From Nocardiopsis xinjiangensis YIM 90004 (GTDB lineage: Bacteria > Actinomycetota > Actinomycetes > Streptosporangiales > Streptosporangiaceae): 64,000 nt of DNA. Where the stretch lies: assembly GCF_000341145.1 (NCBI RefSeq), contig NZ_ANBE01000033.1:1-64000 (forward strand), given 5' to 3'. Made by a program: the position numbers and the translations under genes. Shown here one piece after another: positions 49,310-59,579 of this stretch. Every line of letters begins with the position of its first letter. Position 1 is the stretch's first letter. A model generated the notes under the pieces. It did no database searches, was not told the DNA's origin, and worked only from the letters and a program-made list of their open reading frames with translations.

Positions 49310-50221
49310 TCAGAGCTGGTAGCGGTGGATGCCCCAGGCGAGGTCGCCGGCCTCGCCGCGAGCGACCCACTCCCGCAGCCCGGCCTTCATCTTCTTCAGG
49401 TACTCAGCGCTGATGGTCCCGGAGAGCTCGCTGTCACGGCGCTCGGTCTCCTCCAGAACACGCCCGTAGTGGAGGGGGAGCTGCTTGCTGAGGTCGTCGA
49501 AACCCAGGTCCTTGAAGCCCGCATCGGCGGTGGACTTCCGGTAGAAGCCGAGCGTGCCCATGGACGTCAGGTGCAGCCGCTCCAGGATCGGCCCGAGGGT
49601 GTCCACGGGGGTGTCGTCGTCGGCCATGAGGTCGGTGAAGACGAACTGACCCCCGGGGGCCAGCACACGGGCGACCTCGCGGACGACGAGGTCCCGCTCG
49701 GCGCTGTGGGAGAAAGCGTCCTGGGACCAGACGACGTCGAAGCTGTCGTCCTTGAACGGGATGTCCTCGAAGACGCCGTCCACCACATCGATGAGGTGGT
49801 CGAGCCCTGCTGCGCGGTTGGCCTCGCGGTTGCGCTCGTTCTCGACCTCACTGAGGTTGAGGCAGGTCACCTTGCAGCCGTACTTCTCGGCGAGGTGACG
49901 GGCCGAACCACCGTAGCCGGCACCAACGTCCAGGATCCTGGTGGAGCTGTCCGGGCCGACGTAGGAAGCCATACGCTCGACGGTCCGCGCGCTGGCCTTG
50001 GGGATGTCGTCGGTGTCGGTCAGCCCGTCCACGCCGCGGTAGAGCCCGACGTGGATGTCGGTCCCACCCCAAATCTCGTAATAGAAGGTATCGGCGTCGG
50101 TGCTGTTGTAGTAGTCCCGTGCGGTCTGGACGGCGGACGAATACTCGGGGTCTTGAACCGGACGGTTAATGGTCCCTCTCCTTGTGATCGCTGTTAGGTC
50201 CTGATCCATTGAAGGGGACAT
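49310..50221 (-). CDS. Sarcosine/dimethylglycine N-methyltransferase (betaine synthesis)
   Basis: A SAM-dependent methyltransferase of up to 303 residues, close in pattern to the halophile SDMT enzymes that convert sarcosine to dimethylglycine and glycine betaine. ARDYYNSTDADTFYYEIWGG and DIHVGLY are hallmark segments; SAM motif I is LDVGAGYGGSARHL, and VWSQDAFSHS follows. The glycine-methylating partner (GSMT) is absent from the window. The start is doubtful: ATG 50221 and ATG 50209 have no SD, while AAGGAG lies seven bases before an in-frame ATT at 50170, close to where homologues begin. It stands alone, leftward, after an AT-rich upstream region. Confidence 0.88.
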   Translation of the reverse strand: MSPSMDQDLTAITRRGTINRPVQDPEYSSAVQTARDYYNSTDADTFYYEIWGGTDIHVGLYRGVDGLTDTDDIPKASARTVERMASYVGPDSSTRILDVGAGYGGSARHLAEKYGCKVTCLNLSEVENERNREANRAAGLDHLIDVVDGVFEDIPFKDDSFDVVWSQDAFSHSAERDLVVREVARVLAPGGQFVFTDLMADDDTPVDTLGPILERLHLTSMGTLGFYRKSTADAGFKDLGFDDLSKQLPLHYGRVLEETERRDSELSGTISAEYLKKMKAGLREWVARGEAGDLAWGIHRYQL

Positions 50222-50650: not shown

Positions 50651-52804
50651 TCAGCGGTACAGGAGGCCCTCGACACGGCGCGGCAGCACCAGACCGAGGA
50701 GGCTCGGAACGGCGTACCCCACCTGCCCGGGAGCGAGCATTCCCAGTACCGCGCCCGTGTTCGCGGTGGGTGTGCGCAGGAACGAACCGGCCCTCGGGTG
50801 CGCGTGCGGAACCCCGTTCCCGGCGGCGAGCAGGCTCAGCACGGCAACCAGGGCAACCCCCGCCCACGCCTGATCGGCGGCGCCCAGACCGGCCAGCCAC
50901 CGCTGCAGGTGCGCGAACGCGCTGAGGGCGTAGGCCCCGCCGCCCCCGGACGGTGCCTCAGCGACGGGGAACACGAGCGCGAGGGCCATCCCTCCGGTGA
51001 TCCCCCCGGTCGCTGCCAGGCCGATTCGGCGGGCGATGTCGCGTGCCCCGCTGGTCAGTTCGTCCTCGGACGGCCAGTGGCGCCACTCCCGCCCGCGCGA
51101 ACGGGCCTCCCCCATGGCATTGGCGCGCCGCCACCGCAGGAACCTCAACGTGTCGCAGTACACGGCGGGACCGCGGCACAGGGCGATGAGAGCGACGGTC
51201 AGTTCGTGCACGATCATCGACACGGTCGTGGCGAGCACCGTGGGCAGCTCCACCCACCACAGAGCCATGCGCCGGAACGTCGGGGCGATGTCGGCCGGCA
51301 CCCGCACACGCCACGCCACCGAACGCCCGCGTGTCCAACGGCGCAGCGGCGCCATGGGCGGCTGCCCGGGCAGCGGCGGGGTGGACTCGGCGGCGGTCGC
51401 GATGAGCCGGTGGTCCGTGGCCACCGCGCACACGAGCACCAGGAGCAGGAGTCCGACCGTGAGCGATCCCCCGCCCAGGAGGGTGTGCACGACCTCGGTC
51501 GCCGGGTGCAGCGCGGCTCCGGACACCTGCGCGTTGAACGCCAGGTGATCGAGGTGGGCGACGGCGGCCGCGAGCACCGGCAGCGCCCACAGCCACCCAC
51601 GGCGTCCGACGATCGCGAGCCCGAGCGCACCGCCGAGGAGCCCGCTGGTGACAGCGTGGCCGGCGAACACGGTGAGCTCCTCCCCCGGCCCGGCCACGAG
51701 TCCGCTTCCGGGCAACAGGATCCCGCCCGTGGCCATGGGACCGTCGGCACCGGGCGGGATCTGCACGAAGAGGCGTTCGGCCAGTTGGAGCCCGGCCCCC
51801 GTGGCGGCGGCGAGCAGCAGATGGTCGACGGCGGCCAGGCGGCGAGCCCTCCGGCGCGCGAACACGAACACGAGCAGGAGCGGGGCGAGTTTGCCCAGTT
51901 CCTCCACGGTGACGGCGATGTAGGTGTGGGCGTACACGCCGGCGGGATCGAGGCCGAGCACTCCGGCGAGCGTCCCCTCCGCCAGGGCGAGCGGCCACAC
52001 GAGGACGAAGCCGACGGCGGTGAAGCGCAGCAGGGTCGCGAACGAGACGGTGCGCGAGCGCGAGACCCAGGCGATCTGGAACAGCAGCACGTAGGTGGTC
52101 AGCAGCACCGGCAGGGCCACACCCAGATCGGGCAGGAACCACGGCACCGCCAAGAGCGCGGCGACCATGAGCCAGCTCCACGCGCCGCGCAGGGCCCGTG
52201 CGACGCGTACGGGCCCGGGGGCGTTCTCCCGGATCCCGGAGGCACCGCGGGCGAGGCGTTCGGCCAGGTCGGGTCCGGGTCCTCGGGCGCGGGTGTGCTT
52301 CGCGCCCGAGGGCAGGCACCGGTAGGCCTGCGCGGCGCGCTGGAGCTCGGGGCCGCCCTCGGCACGGACCCGGTTGCCGAACCGGCGCCGGGCCTGGGGG
52401 ATGTCGGCGCCGACGAGTTCGCGCACGAAGTCGGCCGGGCCGGCGGCCACGGTCAGTTCGGTGGAGGTGACCAGGACGGCGGCGGAGAAGTCCTCCACGC
52501 ACACGAGGAAGTCGGTCGGTTCGCGTCCCCAGCCCCGGACGAGGTCGATGAGGACGTCGGTGTCCAGGGGGATCTGGGTGACCGGTTCGTAGGAGTACTG
52601 CGGCCGGGTACGGCAGACCAGGAGCCGGTCCACGCCCATGGCGCGTCCGGCGCCGATGATCGCGCGTACGAGGTTGCGGTCGCGGGGCACGAGGAAGGGT
52701 GTCGTGACCTTGCCGTCGACACGGATCCACGCGGGGTCGAGCTCGCTCGGGCCGGCGCAGACCCGCAACACGAGGTCGCGGGTCAGCATCGCCTGGTCTT
52801 CCAT
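50651..52804 (-). CDS. PrsW-family intramembrane protease with N-terminal soluble domain
   Basis: A 717-residue protein. Residues 1 to about 185 form a soluble domain I do not recognise (RDLVLRVCAGPSELDPAWIR onward). A polytopic membrane region follows with the PrsW/M82 signature: VTVEELGKLAPLLLV near residue 300, a second Glu in LQLAERLFV, His in FAGHAVTSGLLGGALGLA and His in HLDHLAFN. PrsW of Bacillus cleaves the anti-sigma factor RsiW. The C-terminal 250 residues are unusual, with three or more further hydrophobic segments and an Arg-rich loop. The ATG at 52804 has GAGGA upstream. It is the third gene of a leftward run beginning at 55191. Confidence 0.82.
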   Translation of the reverse strand: MEDQAMLTRDLVLRVCAGPSELDPAWIRVDGKVTTPFLVPRDRNLVRAIIGAGRAMGVDRLLVCRTRPQYSYEPVTQIPLDTDVLIDLVRGWGREPTDFLVCVEDFSAAVLVTSTELTVAAGPADFVRELVGADIPQARRRFGNRVRAEGGPELQRAAQAYRCLPSGAKHTRARGPGPDLAERLARGASGIRENAPGPVRVARALRGAWSWLMVAALLAVPWFLPDLGVALPVLLTTYVLLFQIAWVSRSRTVSFATLLRFTAVGFVLVWPLALAEGTLAGVLGLDPAGVYAHTYIAVTVEELGKLAPLLLVFVFARRRARRLAAVDHLLLAAATGAGLQLAERLFVQIPPGADGPMATGGILLPGSGLVAGPGEELTVFAGHAVTSGLLGGALGLAIVGRRGWLWALPVLAAAVAHLDHLAFNAQVSGAALHPATEVVHTLLGGGSLTVGLLLLVLVCAVATDHRLIATAAESTPPLPGQPPMAPLRRWTRGRSVAWRVRVPADIAPTFRRMALWWVELPTVLATTVSMIVHELTVALIALCRGPAVYCDTLRFLRWRRANAMGEARSRGREWRHWPSEDELTSGARDIARRIGLAATGGITGGMALALVFPVAEAPSGGGGAYALSAFAHLQRWLAGLGAADQAWAGVALVAVLSLLAAGNGVPHAHPRAGSFLRTPTANTGAVLGMLAPGQVGYAVPSLLGLVLPRRVEGLLYR

Positions 52805-52954
52805 GGGGGTCCTCGTACCGGGGGGTGTATACGACACGGCCGACCCTTCCGGGGCGTTCCGGCCCGGATCGGCTCGCCCGAGCATAGCCGCGGGTCTCGG
52901 GGCGGGACCACGCCTGCCCTGTTCCGCGCGAGCCCCGGCCCCGTGCCCGTGTCG

Positions 52955-54226
52955 CTACGGAGCGGCGGGTTCCCGGCGGGAAGGCCGGGGGCCGGCCCCG
53001 AGGGCGTCGGTGCACAGCTGCACCGCGTGCCGTACCAGGGGCAACGACAGCGCCCATCCGGCGAGAGCCCACCCCAGGTGGAGGTGGTCCATCGCGCGGG
53101 CCAGGGCGGCGATCCCGCTCCACCGGTTCCCTCTCGTGTCCTCGTAGGTGAGCCGGTACAGCACCTCCGGGTGGCCGGCGGCCGGGAGCACCCGCAACCG
53201 CACCGGGCCGCGGGCCTCCACCCACGCACCGGTCCCCCGGCACACGGCACAGTCCGCGGCCACGTACAGGTTCCCCTCGGCCCGGTCGGGCCACGGACGC
53301 CACCGGGGGACCCAGGGACGTACACCGCGTCGGTAGTGCTCCCAGCTCTTCCCGAAGGCCGCGCGCAGCTGTCCGCCCTCGTGCCACGCCGCGAGGCCGG
53401 CCCCGTAGGCGAGTACGGCCGCGGCCCCCAGGAACAGGGGCGGGTGCAGCGCGCCCAGCACGGTGTAGAGGCACACCATGGTGACCTGCATCGGGTTGCG
53501 CACGTAGGCGTAGGGGCCACTGGTGACGAGCCGCACGGGCGGATCGTAGGGCAACGGGGTCCCGCCGCCCACGGCCGCGAACTCCCGGGCGGCAGCGAGC
53601 CCGGGCAGGCAGGCGAGCGCCAAGGCCTGCAGCGCGACCGAGAGCACAGGGGCCGATGGGGCCGCCGCTACCGGTGCGACAGCGGCGACCGGCAGCACGA
53701 CCGTCGTTCCCAGGGCCAGGAACGCCTGCGCCCACACACGTGCGTGCACGAGGGCCCCGCACCGGGTCCAGTGCGCGAGCAGCAGCGCGGGGATCAGACC
53801 GGCGAGGGCCCCGGCCGACTCCCCGAGGATCCACCACGGGCCCAGCACCACGACGGGTTCGGCCAGAGGCATGAAGAGCGTGTCGATCCACACCAGTGAC
53901 ACCACGAGCAGTGGCACGGGAAGACAGCGCAGGGCCAAGGCGGGCAGCGCGCCCCACAGCACGGCCCACCCGAGCAGGAGGTCCACGGGGATCCCCTTCC
54001 ACACGGCGCCCTCCGCGTGGAAGCTCCACCACCCCACGTGCAGCGCCACGAGATTGAGCGGCACGAGGGCGAGCAGCGACCACGCGGTCGCCACGATCAT
54101 CGCGGCCGTCTCCCGCCGCCCGGGCGCCCGCCACAGGCACAGGGCGACCATCGGCAGGAGGGGGGGGAACAGGGCGGCGCCCCGGACCGCGAGCGCGGGC
54201 AGTTCCGCGGGGGCTCCGGCGGTCAC
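52955..54226 (-). CDS. Membrane fusion: ICMT-like methyltransferase with DCC (DUF393) domain
   Basis: A 423-residue protein in three parts. Residues 1 to about 190 are polytopic, with WWSFHAEGAVWKGIPVDLLLG. Residues about 235-310 match the isoprenylcysteine O-methyltransferase/PEMT fold: VTSGPYAYVRNPMQVTMVCL, a GAGLAAWHEGGQL-like turn and FGKSWEHYRRGVRPWVP. Residues about 315-415 resemble a DCC (DUF393) thiol-disulfide domain, with CxxC as ADCAVCRGTG near residue 325, and ALARAMDHLHLGWALAGWAL. The start is GTG 54226, overlapping the upstream gene by four bases (GTGA), so translation is coupled. A methyltransferase joined to a thiol-redox domain is not an arrangement I know. Confidence 0.75.
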   Translation of the reverse strand: MTAGAPAELPALAVRGAALFPPLLPMVALCLWRAPGRRETAAMIVATAWSLLALVPLNLVALHVGWWSFHAEGAVWKGIPVDLLLGWAVLWGALPALALRCLPVPLLVVSLVWIDTLFMPLAEPVVVLGPWWILGESAGALAGLIPALLLAHWTRCGALVHARVWAQAFLALGTTVVLPVAAVAPVAAAPSAPVLSVALQALALACLPGLAAAREFAAVGGGTPLPYDPPVRLVTSGPYAYVRNPMQVTMVCLYTVLGALHPPLFLGAAAVLAYGAGLAAWHEGGQLRAAFGKSWEHYRRGVRPWVPRWRPWPDRAEGNLYVAADCAVCRGTGAWVEARGPVRLRVLPAAGHPEVLYRLTYEDTRGNRWSGIAALARAMDHLHLGWALAGWALSLPLVRHAVQLCTDALGAGPRPSRREPAAP

Positions 54227-55191
54227 CGGCCGCCCCGCGCGTGTTCGAGTGCGGCCTCGCCGAAGGTGTCGGCGAGGTACTCGGCGGCCAGGTCGGTGGC
54301 GTAGGACTGCACCGGTCCGAAGTACCAGGAGGGTTCGAAGGTGCGTTCGTACTCCACGGTCCAGTCGATGCGGGTCCCGCCCCCGGCCCGGCGTTCCCAG
54401 ACGACCTCGGCCCCGCTCATACGCATCCAGCGGTCGAAGGCCGTGCCGTCGGTGACGGCGAAGACGATCCGGCCCCCGTAGGCGTAGGTGTGGCTCTCCA
54501 CGACCTCGAGCTCCATGTGGCGCGGGGTGGGCTCGGTTCCGGGACGCAGGACCCGCCGGTCGGTGAAGGTGACGTGGCGGGTCTCGCCGACCGCGGATCC
54601 GCCGCCGACTGCCTCGACGGGTTCGGGGAAGGGCACGGCCCTCAGGAACAGGGCGTCGGGCGCACCGAACTCGGGCGGCGCTGCGAGGGCGGCGGCCACG
54701 TGCTCGGGTTCGGCCGCGACGGTGCGGCCGCCCTCGCCCCGATCGTCCCGGGGCAGCAGGGAGAACCCGCCGACGCCCTCGACCGTGAGCACGATCAGCA
54801 GCGGCAGGCCGATCAGGACGTGCGAGGAGCGGTCGTCGGGGCCCCGGGTGATCCGTACCAGGAGCCAGGCCACCAGCGCGGTGATCCCGTACAGGAGCGG
54901 CGCGGCGATGACGAGGCAGACCACACCCTCGCCGAGAAGCGGGCCGGCCAGAAGGAGCGCGAGGGTCAGGACCGCGAGGGCGAGACCGACGGCGCTGCGC
55001 GGGCGGGCGAAAAGCACCACGAGGACGGCGAGCAGGGCGGGCAGGCCGACGTAGAACAGCGCGGTCTGGTCCAGGCCTCCGAAACCGCTCACCCGGAGCC
55101 AGAGCAGGAAGGCGAAGAGGGTCGTGATCAGGGCGGCCGACAGCAGGCGTGCGCGCCATTCCCGCCCCGGGGACGGCTCGGGTCTCGTCAT
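54223..55191 (-). CDS. Polytopic membrane protein with START-like C-terminus
   Basis: A 322-residue protein with about five hydrophobic helices in residues 15-170 (LLSAALITTLFAFLLWLRVSG; LALAVLTLALLLAGPLLG) and a C-terminal soluble region of about 150 residues. That region ends in a long helix (VQSYATDLAAEYLADTFG) and shows strand patterns of the SRPBCC fold (RIVFAVTDGTAFDRWMRMSG, then GGTRIDWTVEY). I do not recognise a named family. The ATG at 55191 has AGGAG six bases upstream. It leads the operon and is divergent from the TetR gene, with a palindrome in between. Confidence 0.75.
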   Translation of the reverse strand: MTRPEPSPGREWRARLLSAALITTLFAFLLWLRVSGFGGLDQTALFYVGLPALLAVLVVLFARPRSAVGLALAVLTLALLLAGPLLGEGVVCLVIAAPLLYGITALVAWLLVRITRGPDDRSSHVLIGLPLLIVLTVEGVGGFSLLPRDDRGEGGRTVAAEPEHVAAALAAPPEFGAPDALFLRAVPFPEPVEAVGGGSAVGETRHVTFTDRRVLRPGTEPTPRHMELEVVESHTYAYGGRIVFAVTDGTAFDRWMRMSGAEVVWERRAGGGTRIDWTVEYERTFEPSWYFGPVQSYATDLAAEYLADTFGEAALEHARGGR

Positions 55192-55242
55192 GGGGGCTCC
55201 TCGTTCCGGAGAACCGTGTGCGGCCCTGTTTTGATCGGATGA

Positions 55243-55260
55243 TTTAATCGCTCGATTAAA
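55243..55260. promoter_or_regulatory. TetR operator palindrome
   Basis: TTTAATCG-CT-CGATTAAA: perfect 8-base arms with a 2-base centre lie between the divergent TetR gene and the membrane operon. The AT-rich arms stand out strongly in this GC-rich DNA. This is the probable binding site of the adjacent TetR protein, controlling both directions. Confidence 0.75.
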
Positions 55261-55302
55261 CAGTATGATGCACTCGACCGTCGACGAGATCAAGGGAGGG
55301 CC

Positions 55303-55947
55303 ATGGCCAAGAGCGGCGGGAACCGCAGGAGCAGCACCGAGACGAAGGAACGCCTCGTCGCGGCCGCGGGCGAGGTCCTGCGAGAGGAGGGCCGGGCCGG
55401 GGCATCAGCCCGCGCAATCGCGACCCGGGCGGGGGCCAACTCGGCACTGGTCTTCTACCACTTCGGCGGCGTCGACCAACTGCTCCTGGCCGCGCTCGAC
55501 CACTCCAGCACCGAACGCATGCGCCTGTACGAAGAGCTCGCCGGACAGGCGCGCACGCTGGAGGAACTCGTCGAGGCGGCCACACGCATCTACCGCACCG
55601 ACCTGGAACGCGGCTACATCACGGAGTTCTCCGAGCTGGTGGCCGCGGCCGTGACCCAGCCGGAGCTGCGACCGGAGATCCGGACCCGTGCCGAGCCCTG
55701 GGTCGCCTTCATCGAACGCCACTGGGACCGGATCCTGGGCGGCTCGGCGCTGGGCCGCTTGCTCCCGGCCCGCGAGGTCGCCAACGCCGCGATCACGTAC
55801 TACCTGGGCGTCAACCTGTTCTCGGTGCTGGACGAGGACCACAGCCGCACCGAGGCCGTGCTCGACCTGGCCGGGGGCCTCGCCCCGCGCGCCAAGCTCC
55901 TCACACTGCGGCTGCCCGGGGCCGGCGAACGGCGCTCCGGCACCTGA
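55303..55947 (+). CDS. TetR/AcrR-family transcriptional regulator
   Basis: A 214-residue repressor. The N-terminal HTH is clear (TKERLVAAAGEVLREEG, then ARAIATRAGANSALVFYHFGG). The C-terminal ligand domain is helical and ends in a Pro-rich region; TetR_C-type helices run from about residue 85. The ATG at 55303 has GGGAGGG just upstream. It is divergent from the membrane operon at 50651-55191, with a perfect palindrome between them. It probably represses that operon until a small, possibly lipid-like, ligand appears. The ligand is unknown. Confidence 0.92.
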   Translation: MAKSGGNRRSSTETKERLVAAAGEVLREEGRAGASARAIATRAGANSALVFYHFGGVDQLLLAALDHSSTERMRLYEELAGQARTLEELVEAATRIYRTDLERGYITEFSELVAAAVTQPELRPEIRTRAEPWVAFIERHWDRILGGSALGRLLPAREVANAAITYYLGVNLFSVLDEDHSRTEAVLDLAGGLAPRAKLLTLRLPGAGERRSGT

Positions 55948-56042
55948 GCCCGCACCCGCTGCCCCGGAGAACCCCGCGTGCGGCCCCGTCGCCCCCGGAC
56001 CTCTCCTAGGCTGGCCGGGGCACACGAGCGGTGAGGAGCAGG

Positions 56043-56528
56043 ATGGACAGGATCACGGTCGCGCCGGGGATCACGTTCCCCGACACCTCCGACGGCCGAA
56101 CGTACGTGGCGGGCGCGGTGATCACCGACCCCCAGGGGCGGGTGTTCACACAGCGGCGCTCGCCCCACCGCAGGATCTTCCCGCACTGCTGGGACATCGT
56201 CGGCGGGCACGTCGAGCACGGCGAATCCATGCTCCAGGGCCTGGCCCGAGAGGTCACCGAGGAGACCGGGTGGCGCGTGAGCGAGGTCCTCGCCGAACTG
56301 TTCAGCATCGAATGGGACCCGGGCGACGGGATCACACGCCACGAGAGCGACTACCTGGTGCGGGTCGAGGGCGACCTGCAGGCCCCGCAGCTGGAGCCGG
56401 ACAAACACACCGAGTACATGTGGGTGGACGACTCCCTCGTGCACCGGCTGCGTGATGAACGCGACCCCGGCGACTACTTCATCACCGACATCGTCCAGCG
56501 CGGCCTCGACGCGGCCCGCGGCCTCTGA
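56043..56528 (+). CDS. NUDIX hydrolase
   Basis: A 161-residue pyrophosphohydrolase. The Nudix box is complete: GGHVEHGESMLQGLAREV followed by TEETGW, near residues 60-83. It may sanitise oxidised nucleotides or hydrolyse a nucleotide-sugar or prenyl diphosphate; the substrate is not resolved. FTQRRSPHRRIFPHCWDIVGG resembles the IDI-like and (d)NTPase subgroups. The ATG at 56043 has GAGGAG just upstream; a GTG at 56031 would add four residues. Its 3' end overlaps the convergent NnrE/NnrD gene by 47 bases. Confidence 0.88.
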   Translation: MDRITVAPGITFPDTSDGRTYVAGAVITDPQGRVFTQRRSPHRRIFPHCWDIVGGHVEHGESMLQGLAREVTEETGWRVSEVLAELFSIEWDPGDGITRHESDYLVRVEGDLQAPQLEPDKHTEYMWVDDSLVHRLRDERDPGDYFITDIVQRGLDAARGL

Positions 56529-58616: not shown

Positions 58617-59579
58617 TCAGGCCGCCCTCCATCTGAACCTGTCGTCGGTGTCCGTGGTCGTGCACTGCATGCGTGTGCCGGCGCTGGTGTACCCGTACTG
58701 CCAGTGCTCACTGCAGAACGCCCCGGGATGCACCCCTGGGACGGGACCGGGTTCGGGCTCGGGCTCCGGCTCCGGCTCGGGCTCCGGCTCGGGCTCCGGC
58801 TCGGGCTCCGGCTCCGGCTCGGGCTCCGGCTCGGGCTCCGGCTCGGGCTCCGGCTCCGGCTCGGGCTCCGGACTGGGGTCCGGACTGGGGTCCCCCATGG
58901 TGTCCGGGCAGTCCTGTCCCGAGGCAACAACGAAGAGTTCCATCTCGAGCGTGTCCGCGTAGGGCGCGGTCTCGCCGTCTTCCTCGGGGTCATGGGCACA
59001 CACCGAAACGGAGTCGGCATCCCCGTCCTCCGGCGCGTCCACGTCACCGAACGCACTGCTGATGACGGTCTCCGCGAGGCCGGCCTCGTCAGCCCATCCC
59101 GATGCGTCGGCAGCAGTCCCCTCTGTCAGGTCGGGGAAACTCGGCCAGGGCACTGCTTCGCCGGGCTCCTCGGGGCAGTCGCTGCCCTCTGGGACCAGGC
59201 CGAGCACGACCTCCCCCTCCGGTGCGCCCTCGGCACCCGAGCAGACCAGCATCGCCGATTCGGTCCAGGGACCGTCTTCGCCGTCCGCCCAGAGCTCCGT
59301 CCCGGCGACCTCGATGCCGGCCGAGTCGAGCTCCTCCAGAGCTTCGGGGAGGAGCGTCCCGATTACGTCGGGGACCGGGTCCTCGGCAGGTTCGGAGGTC
59401 GCGGTGGACTCCGGATCCGGGATATCGGCCAGAGCCGCAACGCATCCGGCGAGCAGGAACATGGAGAGCACTGTTCCGCCGCAGCCCAGGCATCCGAGGC
59501 CGACCTTGACCCCGAGCGACGTGGGTTTGCGACCGTGCGGTCCAGGGGGCGGGGAAGGAGCCCGAGGGGGAGAAGCCAT
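58617..59579 (-). CDS. Secreted or anchored protein with PASTA-like domains and Pro-Glu repeat
   Basis: A 320-residue protein. One hydrophobic segment near the N-terminus ([25 protein letters not shown]) anchors or exports it; the AGC could be a lipobox. Two PASTA-like segments follow ([20 protein letters not shown] and a second around [20 protein letters not shown]). A run of about 20 Pro-Glu dipeptides forms a rigid spacer. The last 40 residues ([19 protein letters not shown]) resemble a small Cys-containing wall-associated module common in actinobacteria. PASTA domains bind peptidoglycan, so a cell-wall location is likely. ATG 59579 is the start. Confidence 0.8.
58751..58875 (-). repeat. 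Low-complexity Pro-Glu-coding microsatellite
   Basis: About 125 bases are built from the hexamers GGCTCG and GGCTCC. They encode the Pro-Glu spacer of the PASTA-like protein. Length may vary between strains by slippage. Confidence 0.85.

Follow-up and report, generated by a model that had tools for sequence, protein, structure and literature searches.

A TetR-controlled cassette of a START-like membrane protein and a methyltransferase-DCC fusion in Nocardiopsis, and its PrsW-like neighbour

Which of the genes that face a TetR-family regulator in Nocardiopsis xinjiangensis YIM 90004 belong with it to a single unit, and what might such a unit do? The locus lies in a stretch of 64,000 nucleotides (contig NZ_ANBE01000033.1, positions 1 to 64,000), referred to here as the window. 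A sequence-only reading had described a TetR repressor facing, across a perfect palindrome, an operon of three coupled genes that encode a PrsW-like protease, an ICMT-DCC fusion and a START-like membrane protein. Its four genes and its palindrome are confirmed at their positions, and that account is largely right on the parts and wrong on the boundary of the unit. The real unit, termed the cassette below, is composed of the divergent TetR, a dyad operator of about 42 bp, the START-like protein with five transmembrane (TM) helices and the PEMT/ICMT-DCC fusion.

50651-52804, minus strand: PrsW-like (PF13367) membrane protein, 717 aa; a neighbour outside the cassette
52955-54226, minus strand: ICMT/PEMT-fold methyltransferase with a C-terminal DCC1-like CxxC domain, 423 aa, GTG start
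54223-55191, minus strand: START-like membrane protein, 322 aa; five predicted TM helices with the N-terminus in, then a helix-grip (START/SRPBCC) domain
55230-55272, no strand: extended dyad of about 42 bp with outer half-sites TTTGATC (55230-55236) and GATGCA (55267-55272)
55243-55260, no strand: core operator TTTAATCG-CT-CGATTAAA, an exact palindrome; family consensus TTTAATCA-NN-TGATTAAA
55264-55269: conserved TATGAT, a -10-like box of tetR
55303-55947, plus strand: divergent TetR-family regulator, 214 aa (TetR_N, 1.7e-7)
56031-56528, plus strand: NUDIX hydrolase (NUDIX, 3.6e-19), found beside PrsW in cassette-free genomes too

The cassette and its neighbours

Coupling holds for part of the proposed operon. 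The START and ICMT-DCC genes overlap by 4 bp (GTGA), an overlap that is kept in most loci, and about 150 bp lie between ICMT-DCC and the PrsW-like gene, which is thus not translationally coupled to it. An alternative start of the PrsW-like gene at an upstream ATG (52885) is possible, and a sigma-70/terminator scan returned no hits. Beside the PrsW-like gene the window carries a sarcosine/dimethylglycine N-methyltransferase-like gene (49310-50221, minus strand; NF041675, E 1e-107, under the curated cut-off), possibly a glycine-betaine gene judging from this match, and on the far side of the locus an ORF with a long Pro-Glu dipeptide repeat (PEPEPE...; 58617-59579, minus strand) that encodes a putative surface protein.

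The START-like protein and full-length ICMT-DCC are found in the identical 22 of 395 actinomycete genomes sampled across the class and are adjacent every time, and they also go together in the 121 genomes sampled from the family; the pairing is therefore obligate in these samples. Weaker matches to the ICMT-DCC profile elsewhere span the methyltransferase region only. The pair is distributed over families f1, f4, f26 and f37, and it is retained by divergent members from other families (L135, L136, L137 and L138). TetR orthologues that are 59-89% identical flank the cassette at nearly all loci, and the regulator and operator together accompany the pair in many different genomic settings. Within Nocardiopsis the cassette is nearly fixed, being present in about 37 of 40 genomes, and outside the genus it is patchy. 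One locus (L064:6912-10766) holds a decayed cassette in which TetR and a 220-residue ICMT-DCC fragment persist without START, the operator has one mismatch and PrsW is intact. The patchy spread and this decayed copy fit a dispensable accessory function; near-fixation such as that in Nocardiopsis is less usual for a gene that serves detoxification alone. Neither an efflux pump nor a natural-product cluster is consistently found beside the cassette across loci, and no conserved small peptide gene is seen within it. In a distant pair (L138:1804-3953) the START gene is preceded and overlapped by 4 bp by the gene of an M48 (Ste24-type) peptidase, a single case that recalls CAAX processing. A complete genome of the same genus as the window (G426) has no cassette, operator or PEMT-family match of any kind and lends itself to comparison where lipids are concerned.

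The PrsW-like protein is a genuine member of its family, as had been proposed: PF13367 is matched by 8 of 23 orthologues (best 2.2e-14), and the residues EExxK (E297, E298, K301), E339, H379 and H416 are invariant. Its gene is nevertheless a separate resident of the locus. In 19 sampled genomes of the family it is present (strong PrsW match) and the cassette is not (no START), and 12 genomes have the cassette without an adjacent PrsW, 10 of them lacking a strong PrsW match anywhere. In cassette-free genomes it is conserved beside genes that we interpret from representative sequences as nnrD and alr-tsaE-tsaB-rimI-tsaD, and PrsW and NUDIX are direct neighbours without the cassette in three loci (L069, L071 and L072); in Nocardiopsis the cassette sits between these two genes. 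Within the genus, anything between 27 and 1447 bp separates ICMT-DCC from PrsW; L141 and L142 carry inserted genes there, as do L049 and L059. Evolutionary distances do not discriminate, as all gene pairs correlate (r 0.6-0.93), PrsW included. Independent synteny and distribution thus rule out PrsW as a member of the cassette, and the suggestion that the protease is a functional partner in the operon is not supported. Read-through transcription into PrsW is possible in Nocardiopsis. The sequence-only reading had made its case depend on the genes occurring together elsewhere, which START, ICMT-DCC and TetR do and PrsW does not. As a separate observation, a PrsW-like protein with an extra N-terminal domain of about 200 residues is fixed in the nnrD...alr-tsaE-tsaB-rimI-tsaD locus of many family genomes (L067-L083), the protein encoded at 50651-52804 in the window being of this kind.

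Operator and TetR regulator

The core operator TTTAATCGCTCGATTAAA (55243-55260) is the sole site of its kind in the 5.33-Mb genome, even when two mismatches are allowed. With at most one mismatch, the more general form TTTAATC-N4-GATTAAA has a single site in each of 21 out of 22 cassette-bearing relatives and no site in four cassette-less genomes, and across the genus the operator is present in 37 of 40 genomes, in 36 of them as a single copy. These counts place the palindrome well beyond chance. In 31 aligned operator regions the columns of GTATGATGA reach a conservation of 0.81-1.0, and the same loci reveal a longer dyad, roughly TTCATC-N6-TTTAATC-N4-GATTAAA-ccgtat-GATGAA, that includes the TATGAT box before tetR. 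From its sequence, this extended dyad may be bound by two TetR dimers.

A conserved operator in the divergent intergenic region alongside its regulator is the arrangement of an autoregulated TetR operon, and its conservation together with the cassette supports the TetR control that had been claimed. Single-site, autoregulating TetR proteins usually serve as local ligand-responsive switches; one operator per genome likewise indicates a local, single-target regulator, as for a dedicated switch of this type. With its divergent repressor, its palindrome over the intergenic promoters and its single target the cassette resembles TetR-controlled one-operator resistance or modification operons, but the target here is a membrane pair, neither an efflux pump nor a soluble enzyme. 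Among the distant pairs, an analogous palindrome, TTTGAGC-N4-GCTCAAA, lies upstream of START in L136, with near-matches at the same place in L135. In the latter (L135:7091-9821) TetR is not divergent but follows as the operon's third gene, and the TTTGAGC-type half-sites stand upstream; no regulator was found near the pairs of L136 and L138.

Domains of the paired membrane proteins

Taken singly, the window proteins score under the Pfam cut-offs, TetR_N excepted, and the domain calls needed sets of orthologues. ICMT-DCC contains a TM core (residues 1 to about 310) with a SAM motif, GPYAYVRNPMQ, at 237-247 and a glutamate at position 283, followed by the CxxC at 326-329. The PEMT profile is matched by 21 of 21 orthologues (best E 3.6e-9). 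Like PEMT and ICMT proteins (PF04191, PF04140) it has a membrane core, GPYxYxxNPM and an invariant Glu followed by FGxxWxxYR; unlike them it adds an N-terminal TM region of about 150 residues without a Pfam match and the C-terminal DCC domain. It also has MQ after RNP, where we take MY to be usual in the family. N244-P245-M246-Q247, E283, C326 and C329 are invariant, even in relatives from other families that are only 37-42% identical, and the protein is a candidate for SAM-dependent methyl transfer. The protein reaches 16.9 bits against the 160-bit equivalog cut-off of NF040696 (protein-S-isoprenylcysteine O-methyltransferase), and that name is therefore inappropriate for it. A lycopene-cyclase (CarR) domain, considered for the N-terminal region from a GWWxF...PVD resemblance, was rejected at an hhalign probability of only 3%.

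The C-terminal domain is matched by the DCC1-like profile in 14 of 21 orthologues (best E 0.0027). When compared profile to profile by hhalign with DCC proteins of related genomes it gives a probability of 87% (E 4.2e-6) over 87 columns that include the CxxC, and two other ICMT-DCC regions stay below 1%. It thus shares domain-length homology, CxxC included, with the DCC1-like oxidoreductases of the YuxK type (PF04134), although compared with these it is weak to single-sequence search, the window protein scoring 14.8 bits against a Pfam cut-off of 27.8. Two further differences from the stand-alone DCC proteins of relatives are its fusion to a methyltransferase and the absence of their acidic D-x-D/C lead. 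Both the methyltransferase and the DCC part, claimed earlier as real domains, hold as such on the PEMT and hhalign matches.

The START-like protein is predicted by AF2 to comprise five helices followed by strand-helix-six strands-helix (E-H-E6-H), at a low mean pLDDT of 54.6. All listed top Foldseek matches of this low-confidence model in the PDB are of the START/Bet v 1 type (best E 2.1e-5), and Polyketide_cyc2 is matched by 5 of 20 orthologues (best 4e-5). The beta-alpha-beta6-alpha helix-grip topology and these fold and profile matches are shared with the START/SRPBCC superfamily and bear out the START-like lipid-binding fold claimed for the protein, with the low pLDDT as a caution; it is unlike other members in its five-TM-helix anchor, its predicted extracytoplasmic position and its constant pairing with ICMT-DCC. 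START domains bind lipids, and by analogy the protein is predicted to bind a lipid or other hydrophobic ligand. A sequence search of the PDB gave zero matches for all three profiles. The structure predictions were built from alignments of three sequences each, and that of ICMT-DCC (pLDDT 37.7) is too poor for active-site inspection and was left out of the fold search. By simple hydropathy and positive-inside counts, 19 of 20 orthologues of the START-like protein would have the N-terminus in and the START domain on the extracytoplasmic side. For ICMT-DCC such counts would put the SAM-binding loop in the cytoplasm in most cases; the side of the membrane on which the DCC domain lies is less sure.

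Possible functions of the cassette

It is tentatively proposed, as the likeliest reading although one somewhat short of probable, that the self-regulated START and ICMT-DCC operon acts as one unit, an inducible membrane module for modification or detoxification. A TetR dimer, or possibly two, on the single operator would repress transcription in both the tetR and the START/ICMT-DCC directions, and a ligand would release TetR and allow the pair to be expressed. The START-like domain, on the predicted outer side, would then bind a hydrophobic molecule such as a lipid, quinone, thiol or aromatic natural product; on the cytoplasmic side the ICMT/PEMT-type enzyme would use SAM to methylate that molecule or a derivative, and the attached CxxC DCC domain would contribute a thiol/disulfide step.

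Since the PrsW-like gene is independent of the cassette, the main basis is gone for the earlier idea that the locus could process and methylate a prenylated peptide, which had stood beside a conceivable role in membrane repair. That idea would have the protease, ICMT-DCC and START cleave and methylate a prenylated or lipid-linked peptide, much as ICMT in eukaryotes acts after an Rce1 or Ste24 protease. The likeness of an ICMT-like enzyme near a PrsW-type protease, on the same strand and close by in the window as in most loci of Nocardiopsis, remains an analogy of folds, to which the M48 gene overlapping the distant pair L138 may be added. Against these points stand the genomes that have the protease or the cassette without the other, the variable and interrupted gap between them and the absence of a conserved small peptide gene. 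Across genomes the protease and the methyltransferase differ in distribution and synteny and are not genetically linked, and we regard this line as very improbable.

The main rival, and a serious one, is regulated phospholipid methylation, in which ICMT-DCC would be a PEMT-type N-methyltransferase of phospholipids (or act on another membrane lipid), START would present or move the lipid and TetR would sense the membrane state or a lipid precursor. The lipid binding of START domains and the near universality of the cassette in the genus are in keeping with it, as is the best Pfam match of the enzyme, PEMT (phospholipid methyltransferase). ICMT-DCC is moreover the sole PEMT-family protein found in the genome of the window, and N. 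dassonvillei has phosphatidylcholine and phosphatidylmethylethanolamine among its lipids (PMC3035300). However, Rossmann-type Pmt enzymes could make phosphatidylcholine, and G426 lacks any PEMT match. Proteins, thiols and other molecules are also methylated by enzymes of the PEMT fold, from which the substrate can therefore not be read. A DCC fusion and a single-target TetR are unusual for constitutive lipid synthesis, and the spread outside the genus is patchy; on balance we think phospholipid methylation unlikely. Less likely still is S-methylation of reactive or toxic thiols, in which DCC would reduce a disulfide to the thiol, the methyltransferase would cap it and TetR would sense the compound. 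The fusion of a CxxC thiol domain with two invariant cysteines to a membrane methyltransferase suggests such chemistry, and a precedent exists in MddA, a membrane-bound S-methyltransferase for H2S and methanethiol with a proposed role in detoxification (PMC12904073), but volatile thiols would leave the START partner unexplained.

To return to the inducible module, a more far-reaching version of it, which we hold to be rather doubtful, has the extracytoplasmic START domain pass its hydrophobic substrate through the membrane to the SAM methyltransferase, which brings along a thiol-redox domain of its own, with a dedicated single-site TetR as the switch. This would be an undescribed actinomycete system with new lipid- or metabolite-modifying chemistry. 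The open-licence full-text literature that was searched holds no description of the domain combination, in line with the earlier statement that no such gene set was known; each domain family is already known, and it is their fusion, obligate pairing and single-site control that appear to be undescribed. The finding corrects a plausible but wrong grouping by placing the adjacent protease outside the system. What remains is a compact cassette, nearly genus-wide in Nocardiopsis and otherwise scattered, that brings together two uncharacterised membrane families and an exact operator, the definition of which opens both the inducer and the substrate to direct search.
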